The notes beneath the pieces are model-generated. The model saw only the letters and a program-made list of their open reading frames with translations. It was not told the origin of the DNA and ran no database searches. DNA of 22,441 nt, from the NCBI GenBank assembly GCA_017614795.1, contig JAGABD010000084.1, positions 1-22,441 on the forward strand. Reading direction: 5' to 3'. The DNA comes from Bacteroidales bacterium (GTDB lineage Bacteria > Bacteroidota > Bacteroidia > Bacteroidales > UBA932). Of the stretch, positions 15,575-21,560 are shown in pieces (the stretch's first letter is position 1; every line of letters begins with the position of its first letter). The translations under genes were made by a program, and so were the position numbers.

Positions 15575-16024
15575 CTATTTTTCAGATAGTGACTCCGCCA
15601 GGGCAGTGAATTCTTCTTCCGAAATGCGGCTCCCCTCGAATTTCTCCTTCGCCCAGATTTCGATCTTGAAGTCACTGCCGGAGAAAACCACTTCCTTGGT
15701 TACACCTATGGACTCAAGGAGTTTGCGCGACACGGTAATGCGGCCCAGTTTGGGATCGGGCTCCACCACGTCGCGGTCGCGCATATATTCTCTCCAGAAC
15801 ATTGCGTCTTTCTTGTTGAAGAAATTGAGTTTGCCCTTCACTTCGGCGCTCTGCCTTTCCCACTCTTCGAAAGTGTACATGTCGAGGCAGGGCGAATAAA
15901 GGGATTTTTTGATCACGAACCTCATATCTCCACCGGGCGGCAACAGCCCCTTGAGCGGCGCTGGGAAGACCATTCTCCCCTTGTCGTCAATCCTGGAGCC
16001 GTATTCGCCGATGAAAGTGACCAT
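15575..16024 (-). CDS. mraZ: Division/cell-wall cluster transcriptional regulator MraZ
   Basis: MraZ is an AbrB-like DNA-binding protein that forms rings and in E. coli represses its own dcw promoter by binding short direct repeats. It has 149 aa, the usual size. It starts MVTFIGEYGSRIDDKGRMVF, the first MraZ domain. A second copy of the fold appears around residues 85-130, with LGRITVSRKLLE matching the DKxGR...P pattern. It is the first gene of the cluster. Four TGGAA boxes directly upstream make autoregulation likely. The ATG at 16024 lies 21 nt after the -7 box. Confidence 0.97.
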   Translation of the reverse strand: MVTFIGEYGSRIDDKGRMVFPAPLKGLLPPGGDMRFVIKKSLYSPCLDMYTFEEWERQSAEVKGKLNFFNKKDAMFWREYMRDRDVVEPDPKLGRITVSRKLLESIGVTKEVVFSGSDFKIEIWAKEKFEGSRISEEEFTALAESLSEK

Positions 16025-16045
16025 AATTCATATACGCAATTGGCA

Positions 16046-16053
16046 CAAAGGTA
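16046..16053 (-). promoter_or_regulatory. Promoter -7 box of mraZ and the dcw operon
   Basis: The minus strand reads TACCTTTG, an exact match to the Bacteroidota -7 consensus TAnnTTTG, 21 nt before the mraZ ATG. The position of the -33 element (about 16073-16076) has no TTTG and is covered by a TGGAA box. A regulator bound there would compete with RNA polymerase. Confidence 0.75.
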
Positions 16054-16062
16054 AGAAAAATT

Positions 16063-16097
16063 TTCCACTTTATTCCACCTTCTTCCAAAATTTTCCA
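16063..16097 (-). promoter_or_regulatory. Four TGGAA direct repeats, 10-bp period: putative MraZ operator
   Basis: On the minus strand TGGAA occurs at 16093-16097, 16083-16087, 16073-16077 and 16063-16067, each followed by 5 nt, so the boxes lie on one face of the helix. A further TGGAA at 16114-16118 is one base out of phase. E. coli MraZ is known to bind TGGGN repeats with 5-nt spacers upstream of mraZ, so both the layout and the core resemble that operator. The boxes begin 9 nt upstream of the -7 box. MraZ binding is inferred. Confidence 0.7.
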
Positions 16098-16118
16098 CAA
16101 TTTTTTCAACAGCTTCCA

Positions 16119-16367
16119 TCGGGGAGCCTGGGGTTGCCTCATGCTTCGCAAAAGGGCTCGACCTGCTTCGGGCCCTGACGGCTCACTAGTGTCACGCCCC
16201 TCCGGGGCCTCCTCATTCTCTCGCCGTCCGGGACGGTCCCTCCGCTTCGTCTCCCCGGGAACCTTTTGCTCAAAATCGGCAGCCCCCAGGCGCCTCCGGC
16301 TCCCGACATGCCGAATACCTCTACAACTTTGCTAATTCTGAAACGCCATCGCGCGGCACCTGGCCGG
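16119..16367. other. GC-rich gene-free stretch with small palindromes
   Basis: I see no credible gene here. Two short perfect inverted repeats are present: GCCCC-TCC-GGGGC at 16196-16208 and CCGTCC-G-GGACGG at 16224-16236. Positions 16244-16269 resemble the end of the last unit of array B. The stretch separates array A from the mraZ operator. It may be a degraded extension of the array element. Confidence 0.5.
16244..16269 (-). repeat. Degenerate end of a fourth array unit plus flank
   Basis: Read on the minus strand, these 26 bases match 21550-21575 (right arm of array B unit 4 and its flank) at 22 of 26 positions without gaps. The shared core is GCAAAAGGT followed by a GAGAC...AAGC flank. 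About 98 bp lie between this point and unit A1. This suggests that the ancestral element extended beyond the preserved three units, with a deletion or replacement inside array A. Confidence 0.5.
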
Positions 16368-16509
16368 GGACCTTTTGCATTTTTGGCCATTTTTGCTAAA
16401 GGTCCCCTTGAAAAAGGCAGGACCTTTAACATATTCCCCTTATATCGTAAAAGGTCCCCCGAAATTCGATAGGACCTTTTACGTTTTCAGCCATTTTTGC
16501 AAAAGGTCC
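16368..16509 (-). repeat. Array A: three 38-bp palindromic units, 52-bp period
   Basis: Units start at 16368, 16420 and 16472. Each is exactly 38 bp, with 11-bp near-complementary arms of the type GGACCTTTTGC / GCAAAAGGTCC around a 16-bp centre. Units are separated by exactly 14 bp. Read on the minus strand the order matches units 1-2-3 of array B. The middle unit is identical to B unit 2 over all 38 bp, and identity extends to 56 bp (16411-16466). The last base of the array, 16509, is the final base of the RAYT stop codon. The arms and regular layout resemble REP/BIME elements associated with RAYT transposases. Confidence 0.9.
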
Positions 16510-17411
16510 TAGACTAATTTTGACAAGTCCTGCGAATCGAGACGAAGAACCCTTGCCAGTTGCTTGGCGTTGCAACCCATTTCCCTTTTTAATAACCGGG
16601 CAACGGCGAGTCTCTCCTGCGCGGAGCATATTGCGATTCTGTCTTTGCGGTACAATTCAAGGCAGAGTTCTACCGCCCGCAGACGTACATCTCCATCCGG
16701 AACCGAAAAGTTCCCGGCTGTCATTTCCTCTTCGACCTCTTTGTCTATGTTGCTGTTATTCAGGTCGAACATGAAACGTCCTATGCTCGGAAACTGTTTT
16801 TCTGCAGTCCTGTAATCGGTGTAGCATCCTGGCCAAATTATGTAAACAGGCTTCTTTGGCTCCAGACTGGCAGAAGCCTTATGAACAAGCCAGTCCGCGG
16901 GCATATTAACTGCTGTATAAAAGTTCCTCAAAATATCTCTGACACCGAGATCGGACATCTTAACGGACTCGGCCGGGGCAACCGACGCTTCATTGAACAT
17001 CAGCATTCCTGAGGACCATCTGTATCCCCACGGAGTTACCTTGATTCCGGCAGCAACAGGATTTCTAAGGACATAGACGATTTTCTCAGCCAACTTGTTG
17101 AACGCGATTGGCCAGTGCCCAAGTTCAATGTGCTCCGACAATGCCGATCCGCGATACTTTGCCACCCACATAGATGTCAGTTTCTTGAAGGTTTCCGCGA
17201 AAAAAGAACAGGCCTCCTCTTCGCCAAAAACGATAAAGTGAAAATGGTTGTCCATCAGGCAAAAGGCGACAATAGTGACGACGAACCCTTTCGCCCTGGT
17301 TATTGTCAAACATACGCCAATCCGGTTCATGGCGGCGACGAATTCCGCCTCGTTTGCAAATAATATTTCACGCGAAAAACCACGTGAGCAGAAATGAAAA
17401 TACTGTTTCAT
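16509..17411 (-). CDS. REP-associated tyrosine transposase (RAYT, IS200-like Y1 HUH)
   Basis: This is a single-strand DNA nuclease/transposase of the Y1 HUH superfamily. It has 300 aa from the ATG at 17411. The HUH motif is in MDNHFHFIVFG (His56-Phe57-His58). Tyr113 in IVYVLRNPVAAG is the probable nucleophile. RNPVAAG...WGYRWSS (116-134) is the hallmark of RAYTs. The extra C-terminal part, about 150 residues, ends in a helix-turn-helix-like stretch (RLAVARLLKREMGCNAKQLA). RAYTs are known to bind and cut REP hairpins. Here palindromic array A starts at the stop codon. The gene is visibly more A/T-rich than its neighbours, suggesting transfer. Extending the frame to 17801 would run antisense through radC, so I reject that start. 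Confidence 0.88.
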   Translation of the reverse strand: MKQYFHFCSRGFSREILFANEAEFVAAMNRIGVCLTITRAKGFVVTIVAFCLMDNHFHFIVFGEEEACSFFAETFKKLTSMWVAKYRGSALSEHIELGHWPIAFNKLAEKIVYVLRNPVAAGIKVTPWGYRWSSGMLMFNEASVAPAESVKMSDLGVRDILRNFYTAVNMPADWLVHKASASLEPKKPVYIIWPGCYTDYRTAEKQFPSIGRFMFDLNNSNIDKEVEEEMTAGNFSVPDGDVRLRAVELCLELYRKDRIAICSAQERLAVARLLKREMGCNAKQLARVLRLDSQDLSKLV

Positions 17412-17415
17412 TCCG

Positions 17416-17423
17416 CAAAAGTA
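17416..17423 (-). promoter_or_regulatory. Possible -7 box of the RAYT gene
   Basis: The minus strand reads TACTTTTG, matching TAnnTTTG. It ends only 4 nt before the RAYT ATG, so a transcript from it would be leaderless or nearly so. No well-spaced TTTG -33 element is seen. Confidence 0.35.
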
Positions 17424-17542
17424 TAACTGTATTTCTTCAAGAAAAAACCAAAGACCTACGAAAACATAAAAATCTTTTTGAATAAGAAAGAAATATATGT
17501 TTTTATAACGCCTGTTCGAAAAAGTCTTCGCACCTTGCGCAC

Positions 17543-18238
17543 ATGAAAATGAAAGAGATGTGCGCGGCGGAGCGGCCGCGGGAAAAGATGATGGAACGCG
17601 GCCCGGGCGGACTCGGGAATGCCGAGCTGCTGGCGGTCCTCCTGCGTACGGGCACAAGGGAAGAAAGTGCAGTAGATTTGGCCCAGAAGCTGTTGAAAAT
17701 GGCGGGCGGAAGCCTTGTCCGGCTCTTCGGGTGGAATGCCGCGAAGCTGTGCGCCATTCCCGGAATAGGTCCTTACAAGGCTGCGGGGGTGCTGGCGGCA
17801 TTCGAACTCGGCCGCCGATTCCTGCAGGAGGGCGCCCCGGTGGAGAAACGGCCGCTCCTTACGGCGAGAATGGTTTACGACCTGATGGCTCCGGTGCTGA
17901 AGGGGCTGGACCACGAGGAGTGCTGGGTGCTTGGGTTCAATGTGTCCTGCTATCTGGTCGGCAGGCAGAAGCTCACCCAGGGTGCGATGAACTCAACTGT
18001 AATCGACTCCCGCCAGGTGCTCAAAGCCGCGCTGGACTGGGGCGCGCACTCCATAGTGCTGATGCATAACCATCCTTCCGGCAATCCCCGTCCGGGCCCT
18101 GAGGACATCCGCCAAACCGAACGCGTCAAGCAGGCCTGCAGCGCCTTCGGCATCCAGCTAACCGACCACATCGTCTTCGCCGACGACTCCTTCTTCAGCT
18201 TCGCCGACGATCGCCTCTATTCTGCGACAGGGGGTTGA
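17543..18238 (+). CDS. radC: RadC family JAB/MPN-domain protein
   Basis: RadC proteins carry a JAMM metalloprotease-like fold. Their role is unsettled: early links to DNA repair have not held up, and many copies sit on mobile elements. The protein has 231 aa, full length. A helix-hairpin-helix region with AIPGIGPYKA lies at about residues 71-80. The JAMM motif MHNHPSGNPRPGPED gives metal ligands His175, His177 and Asp188, and the N-terminal ERPREKMMERGPGGLGNAEL is the usual family start. It is divergent from the RAYT gene across a 131-bp A/T-rich gap, with no convincing promoter box on this strand. The bidirectional hairpin at 18388-18419 probably ends its transcript. Confidence 0.93.
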   Translation: MKMKEMCAAERPREKMMERGPGGLGNAELLAVLLRTGTREESAVDLAQKLLKMAGGSLVRLFGWNAAKLCAIPGIGPYKAAGVLAAFELGRRFLQEGAPVEKRPLLTARMVYDLMAPVLKGLDHEECWVLGFNVSCYLVGRQKLTQGAMNSTVIDSRQVLKAALDWGAHSIVLMHNHPSGNPRPGPEDIRQTERVKQACSAFGIQLTDHIVFADDSFFSFADDRLYSATGG

Positions 18239-18419: not shown

Positions 18420-18495
18420 GGGGTGCAATGTGGGGCTCGAACCCACGACAACCAGAACCACAATCTGGGACTCTACCAACTGAGCTAATTGCACC
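18419..18495 (-). tRNA. tRNA-His (anticodon GTG), CCA encoded
   Basis: The cloverleaf folds completely. The acceptor stem is GTGCAAT/ATTGCAC, with the extra G at -1 facing C73, the identity element of histidine tRNA. The anticodon loop TTGTGGT is closed by CCAGA/TCTGG, so the anticodon is GTG. The T arm is GTGGG TTCGAGC CCCAC. The 3' CCA is in the DNA (18419-18421). A matching promoter lies upstream and a strong terminator directly downstream. Confidence 0.95.
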
Positions 18496-20371: not shown

Positions 20372-21328
20372 TCAGTGTTTCAGGGTTTTTGCGAGGGCAA
20401 AAACCGAGGGTGACAGGTGGCAGTAGCCGCCGGGGTTCTTGTCGAGATAGTCCTGGTGGTATTCGTCGGCAGGATAGAAGGATGAAAGGGGCAGAAGTTC
20501 CACCGGCAGAGAATCGACGCCGAGTTCGTGCCGGACACGCCCGAAGACCTTTTCCAAAACAGGCAGATCAGCCTCATCTCCGTAATAAATGCCGGTGCGG
20601 TAGCGGGTACCTTCGTCCCCGCCCTGTTTGTTCAGGCTGAGGGGATCGATAATCTTGAAATACAGGTCTGCCAGTTCTTCAAGCGAAACCCTTTCGGGAT
20701 TGTATCGGACATGCACGCATTCGGCGTGGCCGGTGGTGTCGGTATAGACCTGCTCATAGCTCGGATTCGGGACCCGGCCATTGGCAAAACCGACCTCCGT
20801 AAAGTCCACGCCATCAATAAGTTTGAAGAATTTCTGCGCTCCCCAGAAGCAACCGGCCGCAAACCAGATTTCGCGCTGCGGTCCACACGTCTGAGCAGCG
20901 ATTCTTTCCAGCCAGATTCGGTCGATCTCGTCGAAAGACGCAAGCTCCCGGCTGTCGATGTCCAGAACTGCCGCAATGTCGTTATTATGCCACACCGGAA
21001 CGACTATCTCGCTGCGGCTTTCGCTCGAACATGCTATGTGGCCCGGGAACTTCTCCACATCCGGAACTACTACCGTACGCCTCTCCGACAACGCTGTCCC
21101 GCAGACGCCCTTGCCCTTCTTTATCCTGTAGCACGCGACAGGTCCCTGAAACGGACCGAGCACCAGTTCTTCCCCTTCAACCCTGTAGAACCCAGTCCAC
21201 CAGAATCCCATCTCCCGGTGAAGCAGCGCGGCGATGTTAGCCATCCTGGCAATCACATCACTCTCGCCCGCCACCAACGCTTCCGCCTGTCGCAGCAGTT
21301 CGCGGTATTTCTGTTCCTTGTCAATCAT
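20372..21328 (-). CDS. Fusion of free methionine-R-sulfoxide reductase (GAF) and MsrA
   Basis: This 318-aa protein joins two repair enzymes. Residues 1 to about 148 form a GAF domain of the fRMsr/MsrC (YebR) type, with LVLGPFQGPVACYRI, GKGVCGTA and GHIACSS. Cys66, Cys76 and Cys100 correspond to the three conserved cysteines; Cys100 would be the nucleophile. Residues about 152-318 are MsrA, with GCFWG (nucleophile Cys160), GHAE (200-203), DEYHQDYLDKNP and a C-terminal Cys303 that could resolve the disulfide. Together they would reduce free methionine-R-sulfoxide and methionine-S-sulfoxide. The junction has almost no linker. It is convergent with the carboxyltransferase gene, with an 11-bp gap. 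The ATG at 21328 is 7 nt after a -7 box. Confidence 0.92.
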   Translation of the reverse strand: MIDKEQKYRELLRQAEALVAGESDVIARMANIAALLHREMGFWWTGFYRVEGEELVLGPFQGPVACYRIKKGKGVCGTALSERRTVVVPDVEKFPGHIACSSESRSEIVVPVWHNNDIAAVLDIDSRELASFDEIDRIWLERIAAQTCGPQREIWFAAGCFWGAQKFFKLIDGVDFTEVGFANGRVPNPSYEQVYTDTTGHAECVHVRYNPERVSLEELADLYFKIIDPLSLNKQGGDEGTRYRTGIYYGDEADLPVLEKVFGRVRHELGVDSLPVELLPLSSFYPADEYHQDYLDKNPGGYCHLSPSVFALAKTLKH

Positions 21329-21366: not shown

Positions 21367-21560
21367 GGACCTTTTGCAAAAAAGGCGAAAAATGTAGAAG
21401 GTCCTGCCAAATTTCGGGGGACCTTTTACGATATAAGGGGAATATGTTAAAGGTCCTGCCTTTTTTGAGGGGACCTTTAGCAAAATAGGGCCAAAATGCA
21501 AAAGGTCCCGCCATTTTCGAGGGGACCTTTAGCAAAAACCGGCCAAAACGCAAAAGGTCC
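21367..21560 (+). repeat. Array B: four 38-bp palindromic units, 52-bp period
   Basis: Units start at 21367, 21419, 21471 and 21523. Each is exactly 38 bp with 11-bp arms (GGACCTTTTGC-like and GCAAAAGGTCC-like), separated by 14-bp spacers. It is inverted relative to array A: units 1-3 here align with the reverse complement of the three units there, and spacers are also similar. Positions 21410-21465 are identical to the reverse complement of 16411-16466. Units 1, 3 and 4 have A-rich centres, most with a GGCC core, whereas unit 2 has the different centre GATATAAGGGGAATAT. The array lies between the esterase stop and the msr promoter. Confidence 0.9.

Follow-up and report, generated by a model that had tools for sequence, protein, structure and literature searches.

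The described systems that stand closest to the locus reported here are built around TnpAREP proteins, or RAYTs, for which hairpin recognition and tyrosine-mediated cutting and joining of single-stranded DNA are established (PMC6006769, PMC8266576). The REP hairpins of E. coli are described as bulged and cleaved (PMC8266576). The TnpAY1 classification survey reports no REP-like sequences for subclass 2.1, and it attributes to the Bacteroidetes subclass 2.6 non-GTAG structures that flank the gene and have further genomic copies, together with proteins of a median 179 aa carrying the motifs NH[LIV]H and YIH[QN]NP; as described there, that survey began with Pfam hits in complete genomes (PMC6006769). 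TIR-flanked RAYTs are known as well, and the TIRs of many such TIRYTs are reported to carry GGGGWSAS (PMC3733652).

Compared with the E. coli-type REP/TnpAREP system (subclass 2.2), the locus in the 22,441-nt stretch of DNA from an uncultured Bacteroidales bacterium analysed here (hereafter the window) differs in several respects: its palindromes have no GT[AG]G foot but start with GGACC, they are arranged in a tandem 52-bp architecture, and the RAYT next to them is 300 aa long with an extended C-terminal part (Table 1). We consider it probable that the locus represents a REP/RAYT module belonging to a Bacteroidales lineage, in which the RAYT would act as a single-stranded DNA endonuclease with the GGACCTTTT palindromes as its cognate substrates. 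This reading rests on sequence comparison, mostly in relatives, i.e. on the association of palindromes with RAYT genes, private palindromes, co-divergence of the two partners, a largely genome-restricted dispersal, the conserved 52-bp architecture and the module's differing locations on the chromosomes of close kin. We infer the single-stranded substrate, catalysis by Tyr113, the place of the cut, the choice of strand and growth by tandem duplication.

Table 1. Features of the RAYT locus and of the second array (window coordinates)
Feature	Position	Strand	Remark
RAYT (HUH Y1 transposase, 300 aa; long C-terminal part, short predicted helices at end, HTH-like by profile)	16509..17411	-	start ATG at 17411, stop TAG at 16511-16509
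His56-Phe57-His58 codons (HUH motif)	17238..17246	-	His56 and His58 invariant in 35-sequence alignment A1
Tyr113 codon (expected nucleophile)	17073..17075	-	invariant in 35-sequence alignment A1; Y---NP signature
mraZ-radC intergenic region holding RAYT and array 1, 1518 bp	16025..17542	.	158-262 bp (measured between tblastn matches) and empty in five close relatives
Array 1 unit A	16472..16509	-	one-base overlap with RAYT stop codon
Spacer A/B, 14 bp	16458..16471	-	
Array 1 unit B	16420..16457	-	identical to second unit of array 2
Spacer B/C, 14 bp	16406..16419	-	
Array 1 unit C	16368..16405	-	
Array 2, four 38-bp units A-B-C-D, 14-bp spacers	21367-21404, 21419-21456, 21471-21508, 21523-21560	+	
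Isolated degenerate half-arm	16255..16269	+	93% like 16364-16378

The catalytic residues picked out in the initial annotation, His56, His58 and Tyr113, hold up across A1, where Asn117 is likewise invariant and Pro118 is kept at 90% or more, giving the HUH motif and single catalytic tyrosine of a RAYT/TnpAREP (class 2 TnpAY1); its WYRWSS motif has to be corrected to WGYRWSS. Comparison with the PDB returned the TnpAREP fold, with residues beyond 210 barely covered, and the structure model has short helices at its C-terminal end. Against Pfam Y1_Tnp the protein scores 16.3 bits, under the gathering cut-off of 23, which is set for annotation and is not a biological criterion; because the RAYT motif and fold are present, we read this score as divergence. 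Y1_Tnp matches at E ≤0.1 were obtained for 30 of the 35 A1 members (best 4.2e-07). Since 65 of 67 homologues, among the matches listed, are without a precomputed Pfam domain, the lineage is easily missed by a survey that starts from Pfam. Of 249 genomes drawn from a single Bacteroidales family, 118 contain relatives at 1e-10, and among the titles and abstract beginnings listed by searches of open-licence literature none describes this Bacteroidales RAYT lineage.

A Pfam search with the C-terminal 113 aa gave no match. This part nevertheless aligns with HTH-tailed RAYTs at an hhalign probability of 99.9, in a profile alignment that spans the full length; the comparison set consists of 42 RAYTs from Firmicutes and others, with no named subclass 2.1 reference among them. 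Purifying selection acts on a set of RAYT pairs, with a median dN/dS of 0.13 over the 45 non-independent pairs with finite dS out of 57, the 25 pairs listed coming almost all from one Coprenecus-type cluster. Eight RAYTs from different Coprenecus-type genomes (L017, L018, L019, L020, L107, L108, L111 and L113) are ~96-99% identical at a dS of ~0.03-0.18, which hints at recent transfer.

Array 1 (16368-16509) comprises three 38-bp palindromes with 14-bp spacers, and its first base is the G of the RAYT stop codon TAG; both the unit architecture and the shared base had been given correctly before, and TRF reports a period of 52 (score 129). It occupies one side of the RAYT only. Array 2, which was absent from that first finding, sits 4.9 kb away; its order A-B-C is that of array 1 read on the minus strand, followed by the extra unit D, and both arrays start and stop on whole core-type units. 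The exact pattern GGACCTTTN{20,24}AAAGGTCC matches six times in the window against 0.00 expected, a number reached by none of 100 dinucleotide shuffles, and the seventh unit (21367-21404) is one base off. CRISPR-like repeats were ruled out, as the 'repeats' are palindromes with variable cores, and at gathering thresholds Rfam found in the window only the tRNA at 18422-18494.

Each unit follows the same plan: an arm of ~12 nt, a 14-nt core and a complementary arm of ~12 nt, after which comes the 14-nt spacer. Because core and spacer are both 14 nt long, arms of opposite sense recur every 26 bp, and any arm can pair over a core or over a spacer. Single units fold as hairpins (z -1.96 to -5.88 for 16 sequences, i.e. 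eight units on both strands); the 142-nt array 1, folded as single-stranded DNA, reaches z -7.35, with the inner arms paired over the spacers and the two outermost arms joined to one another. Owing to the symmetry of the arms, no single foot like GTAG can be read from the units, while the core is A-rich on one strand and could thereby serve as a strand mark. No convincing conserved motif was seen by eye beyond the array ends (28 ends of 14 arrays in genome G003, fewer ends elsewhere).

Palindromes of this kind accompany RAYT genes well beyond the window. Relatives' loci were taken as the best 80 of 418 relatives from a scan of genome contigs, and density was assessed at 40 Bacteroidota loci (L001-L039 and L041; L040 was omitted because its locus ends early): 70 palindromes lie within 500 bp of the RAYT genes (1.80/kb) versus 110 farther out (0.30/kb), a sixfold difference. 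Among 76 distinct RAYTs (133 ORF matches minus 42 of another RAYT group and 15 duplicates), 40 have palindromes on both flanks, and at 19 of these the two sides agree in 11 or all 12 of the arm bases, compared with a mean of 0.17 and a maximum of one matching RAYT in 60 shuffled pairings. The 42 RAYTs of the other group, to which both loci on viral contigs belong, have palindromes on both flanks in 12 cases and matching arms in one. Speaking against a strict pairing, 36 of the 76 lack a detected palindrome on at least one side, some flanks being cut, and 21 of the 40 two-sided RAYTs fail the 11/12 arm match. The detector is too strict for some families; it missed, for instance, the units at L041, which were found by pattern search. 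An inverted repeat ACATA..TATGT upstream of the RAYT was seen at just 4 of the 76.

Enzyme and arms diverge together. RAYT identity and arm similarity are correlated across 70 RAYTs (Mantel r 0.32, a value reached in 0 of 2000 permutations), and arms are shared in 30 of 38 RAYT pairs more than 80% identical, in 5 of 17 pairs at 60-80% and in 25 of 2360 below 60%; given this drop with RAYT identity, arm sequence must turn over quickly. Density, matching two-sided arms and co-divergence in relatives thus support the proposal, made for the window from its sequence, that the palindromes are the cognate elements of the RAYT. Similar arms also occur at greater distance: the L041 RAYT is 24% identical to that of the window, yet it has two-sided GGACCT..AGGTCC units of 38 bp at 52-53 bp, in a genome (G474) whose eight RAYT matches are all at 35% identity or less. 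The form GGACC..GGTCC is found in the 600-bp flanks of 8 of the 76 RAYTs, two of which (L009 and L015) have flanking copies that are not otherwise palindromic, and six control palindromes occur near 0-3. Near the distantly related RAYTs of L012, L026, L037, L038 and L133, GGTCC-(12-14)-GGACC hairpins are present, which are the inverse of a unit and resemble an array spacer together with the arms on either side. Among distant RAYTs, many have single palindromes instead of tandem ones.

Copy numbers point in the same direction. GGACCTN{24,29}AGGTCC matches 53 times in G003, 37 times in G002 and 0-5 times in the remaining 26 of 28 RAYT genomes, in which a reversed-pattern control gave 1-13 matches. 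The comparison of copy counts with and without a RAYT that the initial annotation had called for was run on relatives, namely G003 and 80 others, 41 of which have a RAYT at 1e-10 and 32 any GGACCT-pattern match: more than five matches occur only in G003 (53) and G306 (8), and these are the only two of the 81 genomes with a RAYT over 50% identical to that of the window (51% and 53%, respectively). The G306 copies are a third sort, GGACCTGGAGC. One observation runs against this rule: in G303, where no RAYT reaches 1e-10, two GGACCTCCGACA palindromes stand isolated. These are of the GGACCTCCGACA..TGTCGGAGGTCC type and lie at C2:221939-221977 and C3:89808-89847.

Other palindrome types are distributed in a comparable way. 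Among 32 genomes, the ACCTTCCCC type was found in four (11 copies in G004, eight in G005, four in G306 and one in G001) and flanks the RAYTs L006 in G004 and L005 in G005; the copies in G306 and G001 run against a strict restriction, since close RAYTs there carry other types, as far as seen. The CTGGACAG type is present in G010 alone, as two copies bracketing its RAYT, and the TGCACATT type in six of the 32, beside RAYTs in G017, G019, G020 and G023 but not in G016 and G025. Some RAYTs have copies at their own locus only, as in G010 (two) and for the GTAG type of G004 (three). A search for the window type in 398 genomes from the G003 family gave one isolated 36-bp match in each of three genomes and no array, and the type therefore looks private to its species. 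By these counts, palindrome types appear largely, if imperfectly, confined to genomes carrying their RAYTs. In relatives, cognate palindromes occur both beside the gene and scattered over the genome; the window itself shows the one-sided array plus array 2.

What persists across these types is the spacing. The period is 52 (53 in G002) in 90 of 96 intervals from seven genomes with six palindrome sequences, and the six exceptions, of 51 or 53, are all in G003. Unit length is 38 bp in 65 of 65 G003 units and 39 bp in 22 of 22 G002 units in the stretches read, and it is off in two of eight G001 units and one of nine G004 units, those of G001, G004 and G005 having been measured as 34-bp stems. As the units within an array are near-copies, families rather than intervals count as independent observations. 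A self-match scan of RAYT flanks gave 52 as the commonest lag (11 of 147 flanks), compared with 0 of 82 flanks, and one at 51, in the other RAYT group. The view that this is a Bacteroidota REP/RAYT system with an architecture of its own is supported by the recurrence of the 52-bp period with different sequences.

The accompanying statement that the units are unlike GTAG-headed REPs applies to the window, whose units start with GGACC, but not to its whole clade. The tree places L004 as sister to L001 (96/83); at 169-272 and 1398-1605 this locus carries 52-bp units that begin with GTAGCC, the head of classical REPs, next to a RAYT that belongs to the GGACCT clade. In G004 these units are matched only at their own locus, and matches in other genomes look like chance; the same genome thus harbours two RAYTs and two repeat types, L004 with GTAGCC units and L006 with ACCTTCCCC units. 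Such comparisons indicate that spacing stays while arm sequence changes among close relatives.

The surroundings of the RAYT speak for movement. G002-G005 and G306, whose mraZ is 78-81% identical, have radC and mraZ as divergent neighbours without RAYT or array. Such adjacency in all five of the nearest relatives makes it most likely that the module has moved. mraZ and radC are also adjacent in G275 (175 bp). In total, 30 genomes yielded 27 mraZ loci, and six of these show the arrangement; in G008 the radC match is weaker and lies on the mraZ strand, and radC was not found at the remaining loci. Across ten RAYT loci (up to 3.5 kb per side, contig permitting), neighbour genes are common only to the sisters L005 and L006. 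RAYT and array have thus most likely changed place together among close kin, with borders that are approximate; loss of both in six relatives is the less likely alternative.

The window offers some further observations around these genes. Upstream of mraZ, the direct repeat AAAATTTTCCAC occurs twice (16057-16098), relatives have GTGGAAAA-like repeats at the same place, and these are perhaps an MraZ operator. Around array 2, the msrA neighbourhood shows no synteny across the 14 loci retrieved; here the window encodes a fusion in the order GAF then MsrA (20372-21328), the order being MsrA then GAF in G001, G002, G003, G004 and G306, and we take the GAF half to be fRMsr-like. Elsewhere, a four-unit array at L142 (1999-2191) lies within a 606-aa open frame, possibly an array inside a gene.

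Within the preferred reading, the following course of events can be envisaged. In single-stranded DNA, for which the lagging-strand template is the likeliest source, the ~12-nt arms would form hairpins with a loop of ~14 nt that is A-rich on one strand. The RAYT would bind such a hairpin, cut near its foot via Tyr113 and join the hairpin elsewhere; by analogy with TnpAREP, hairpin recognition and tyrosine-mediated cutting and joining of single-stranded DNA are likely for the window protein. Joining of this kind could have dispersed units over the genome and carried the RAYT, together with the array beside it, to new places as a single module. Local tandem duplication of 52-bp units may then lengthen the arrays, and this step is suggested by the near-copies of unit plus spacer within them.

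Two other explanations deserve consideration. The palindromes might be duplex operators, read by the HTH-like C-terminus of the RAYT or by a nucleoid protein, with double-stranded arms alternating every 26 bp; the system would then serve as a domesticated regulator or as an organiser of the chromosome, and would not be mobile. The alignment of its C-terminal part with HTH-tailed RAYTs, the terminal helices of the model, the purifying selection on a set of RAYT pairs and a period of about five helical turns kept over six palindrome sequences are all consistent with such a role, but common descent and tandem duplication could also keep the period, and many distant RAYTs have only single palindromes. 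Movement is favoured by the dispersal of copies, by RAYT loci that lack synteny and by an mraZ-radC site that is empty in relatives, and we regard this explanation as unlikely.

Far less probable still is that the palindromes are ordinary host elements, such as terminators, mRNA stabilisers or nucleoid sites, next to which the RAYT came to lie by chance or by hairpin-directed insertion. Hairpins are common in intergenic DNA, and of 16 arrays 13 are free of overlap with any open frame of at least 150 aa, and 8 with any of at least 80 aa, as this explanation would have it. However, it leaves the matching two-sided copies at 19 RAYTs, the co-divergence of arms and enzyme and the largely genome-restricted sequences without an account, and intrinsic terminators were rejected for array 1, within which none of the three terminator-like calls at 15900-17700 falls.

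Returning to the REP/RAYT module, the fixed spacing is not predicted by a model of hairpins alone and suggests that the duplex may be read as well. A tentative extension, which we hold to be possible though doubtful, is that in Bacteroidales a large lineage of two-domain RAYTs, most of it without annotation, reads each repeat in two ways: the HUH domain would process single-stranded hairpins, and the HTH-like C-terminus would bind the same arms as duplex. If so, double reading would force the fixed 12+14+12+14 spacing (~five helical turns) while leaving arm sequence free to change, and each enzyme and its repeats would co-evolve as an orthogonal pair private to the species, some genomes containing several such pairs. 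A new question arises, namely why the 52-bp spacing outlives the sequence it spaces. About twenty natural enzyme/repeat pairs with matching two-sided repeats are now at hand, including L004 and L006 within G004, so that how RAYTs choose and spread their repeats becomes testable.

Among known systems, REPINs and BIMEs share with these arrays the clustered inverted arms, which can pair within and between units; they differ in that the ~12-nt arms here form no hairpin alone and the units run head-to-tail with a 14-nt spacer. Subclass 2.6 is similar in its Bacteroidetes hosts and in having non-GTAG flanking structures with copies elsewhere, as described in PMC6006769. The window RAYT departs from it with NHFH, YVLRNP and 300 aa, but NHVH is found in 44 of the 76 relatives. 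The protein itself resembles, in sequence, the HTH-tailed RAYTs of subclass 2.1, though not in all motifs: NHFH fits the NH[YF]H given for subclass 2.1 and TIRYTs, an SS motif follows past the core, and the alignment with the 42 HTH-tailed RAYTs, 29 of which have FQ, covers its full length. YVLRNP stands in place of YIELNP or Y[IV]HLNP, and neither W[EQ] nor FQ is present at the aligned place; a loose scan of the 76 Bacteroidales RAYTs likewise found neither in 70, and YVLRNP in 44. Unlike subclass 2.1 and TIRYTs as described, the window protein is longer and comes with private palindromes, which are now tied to RAYTs akin to a group reported without any.
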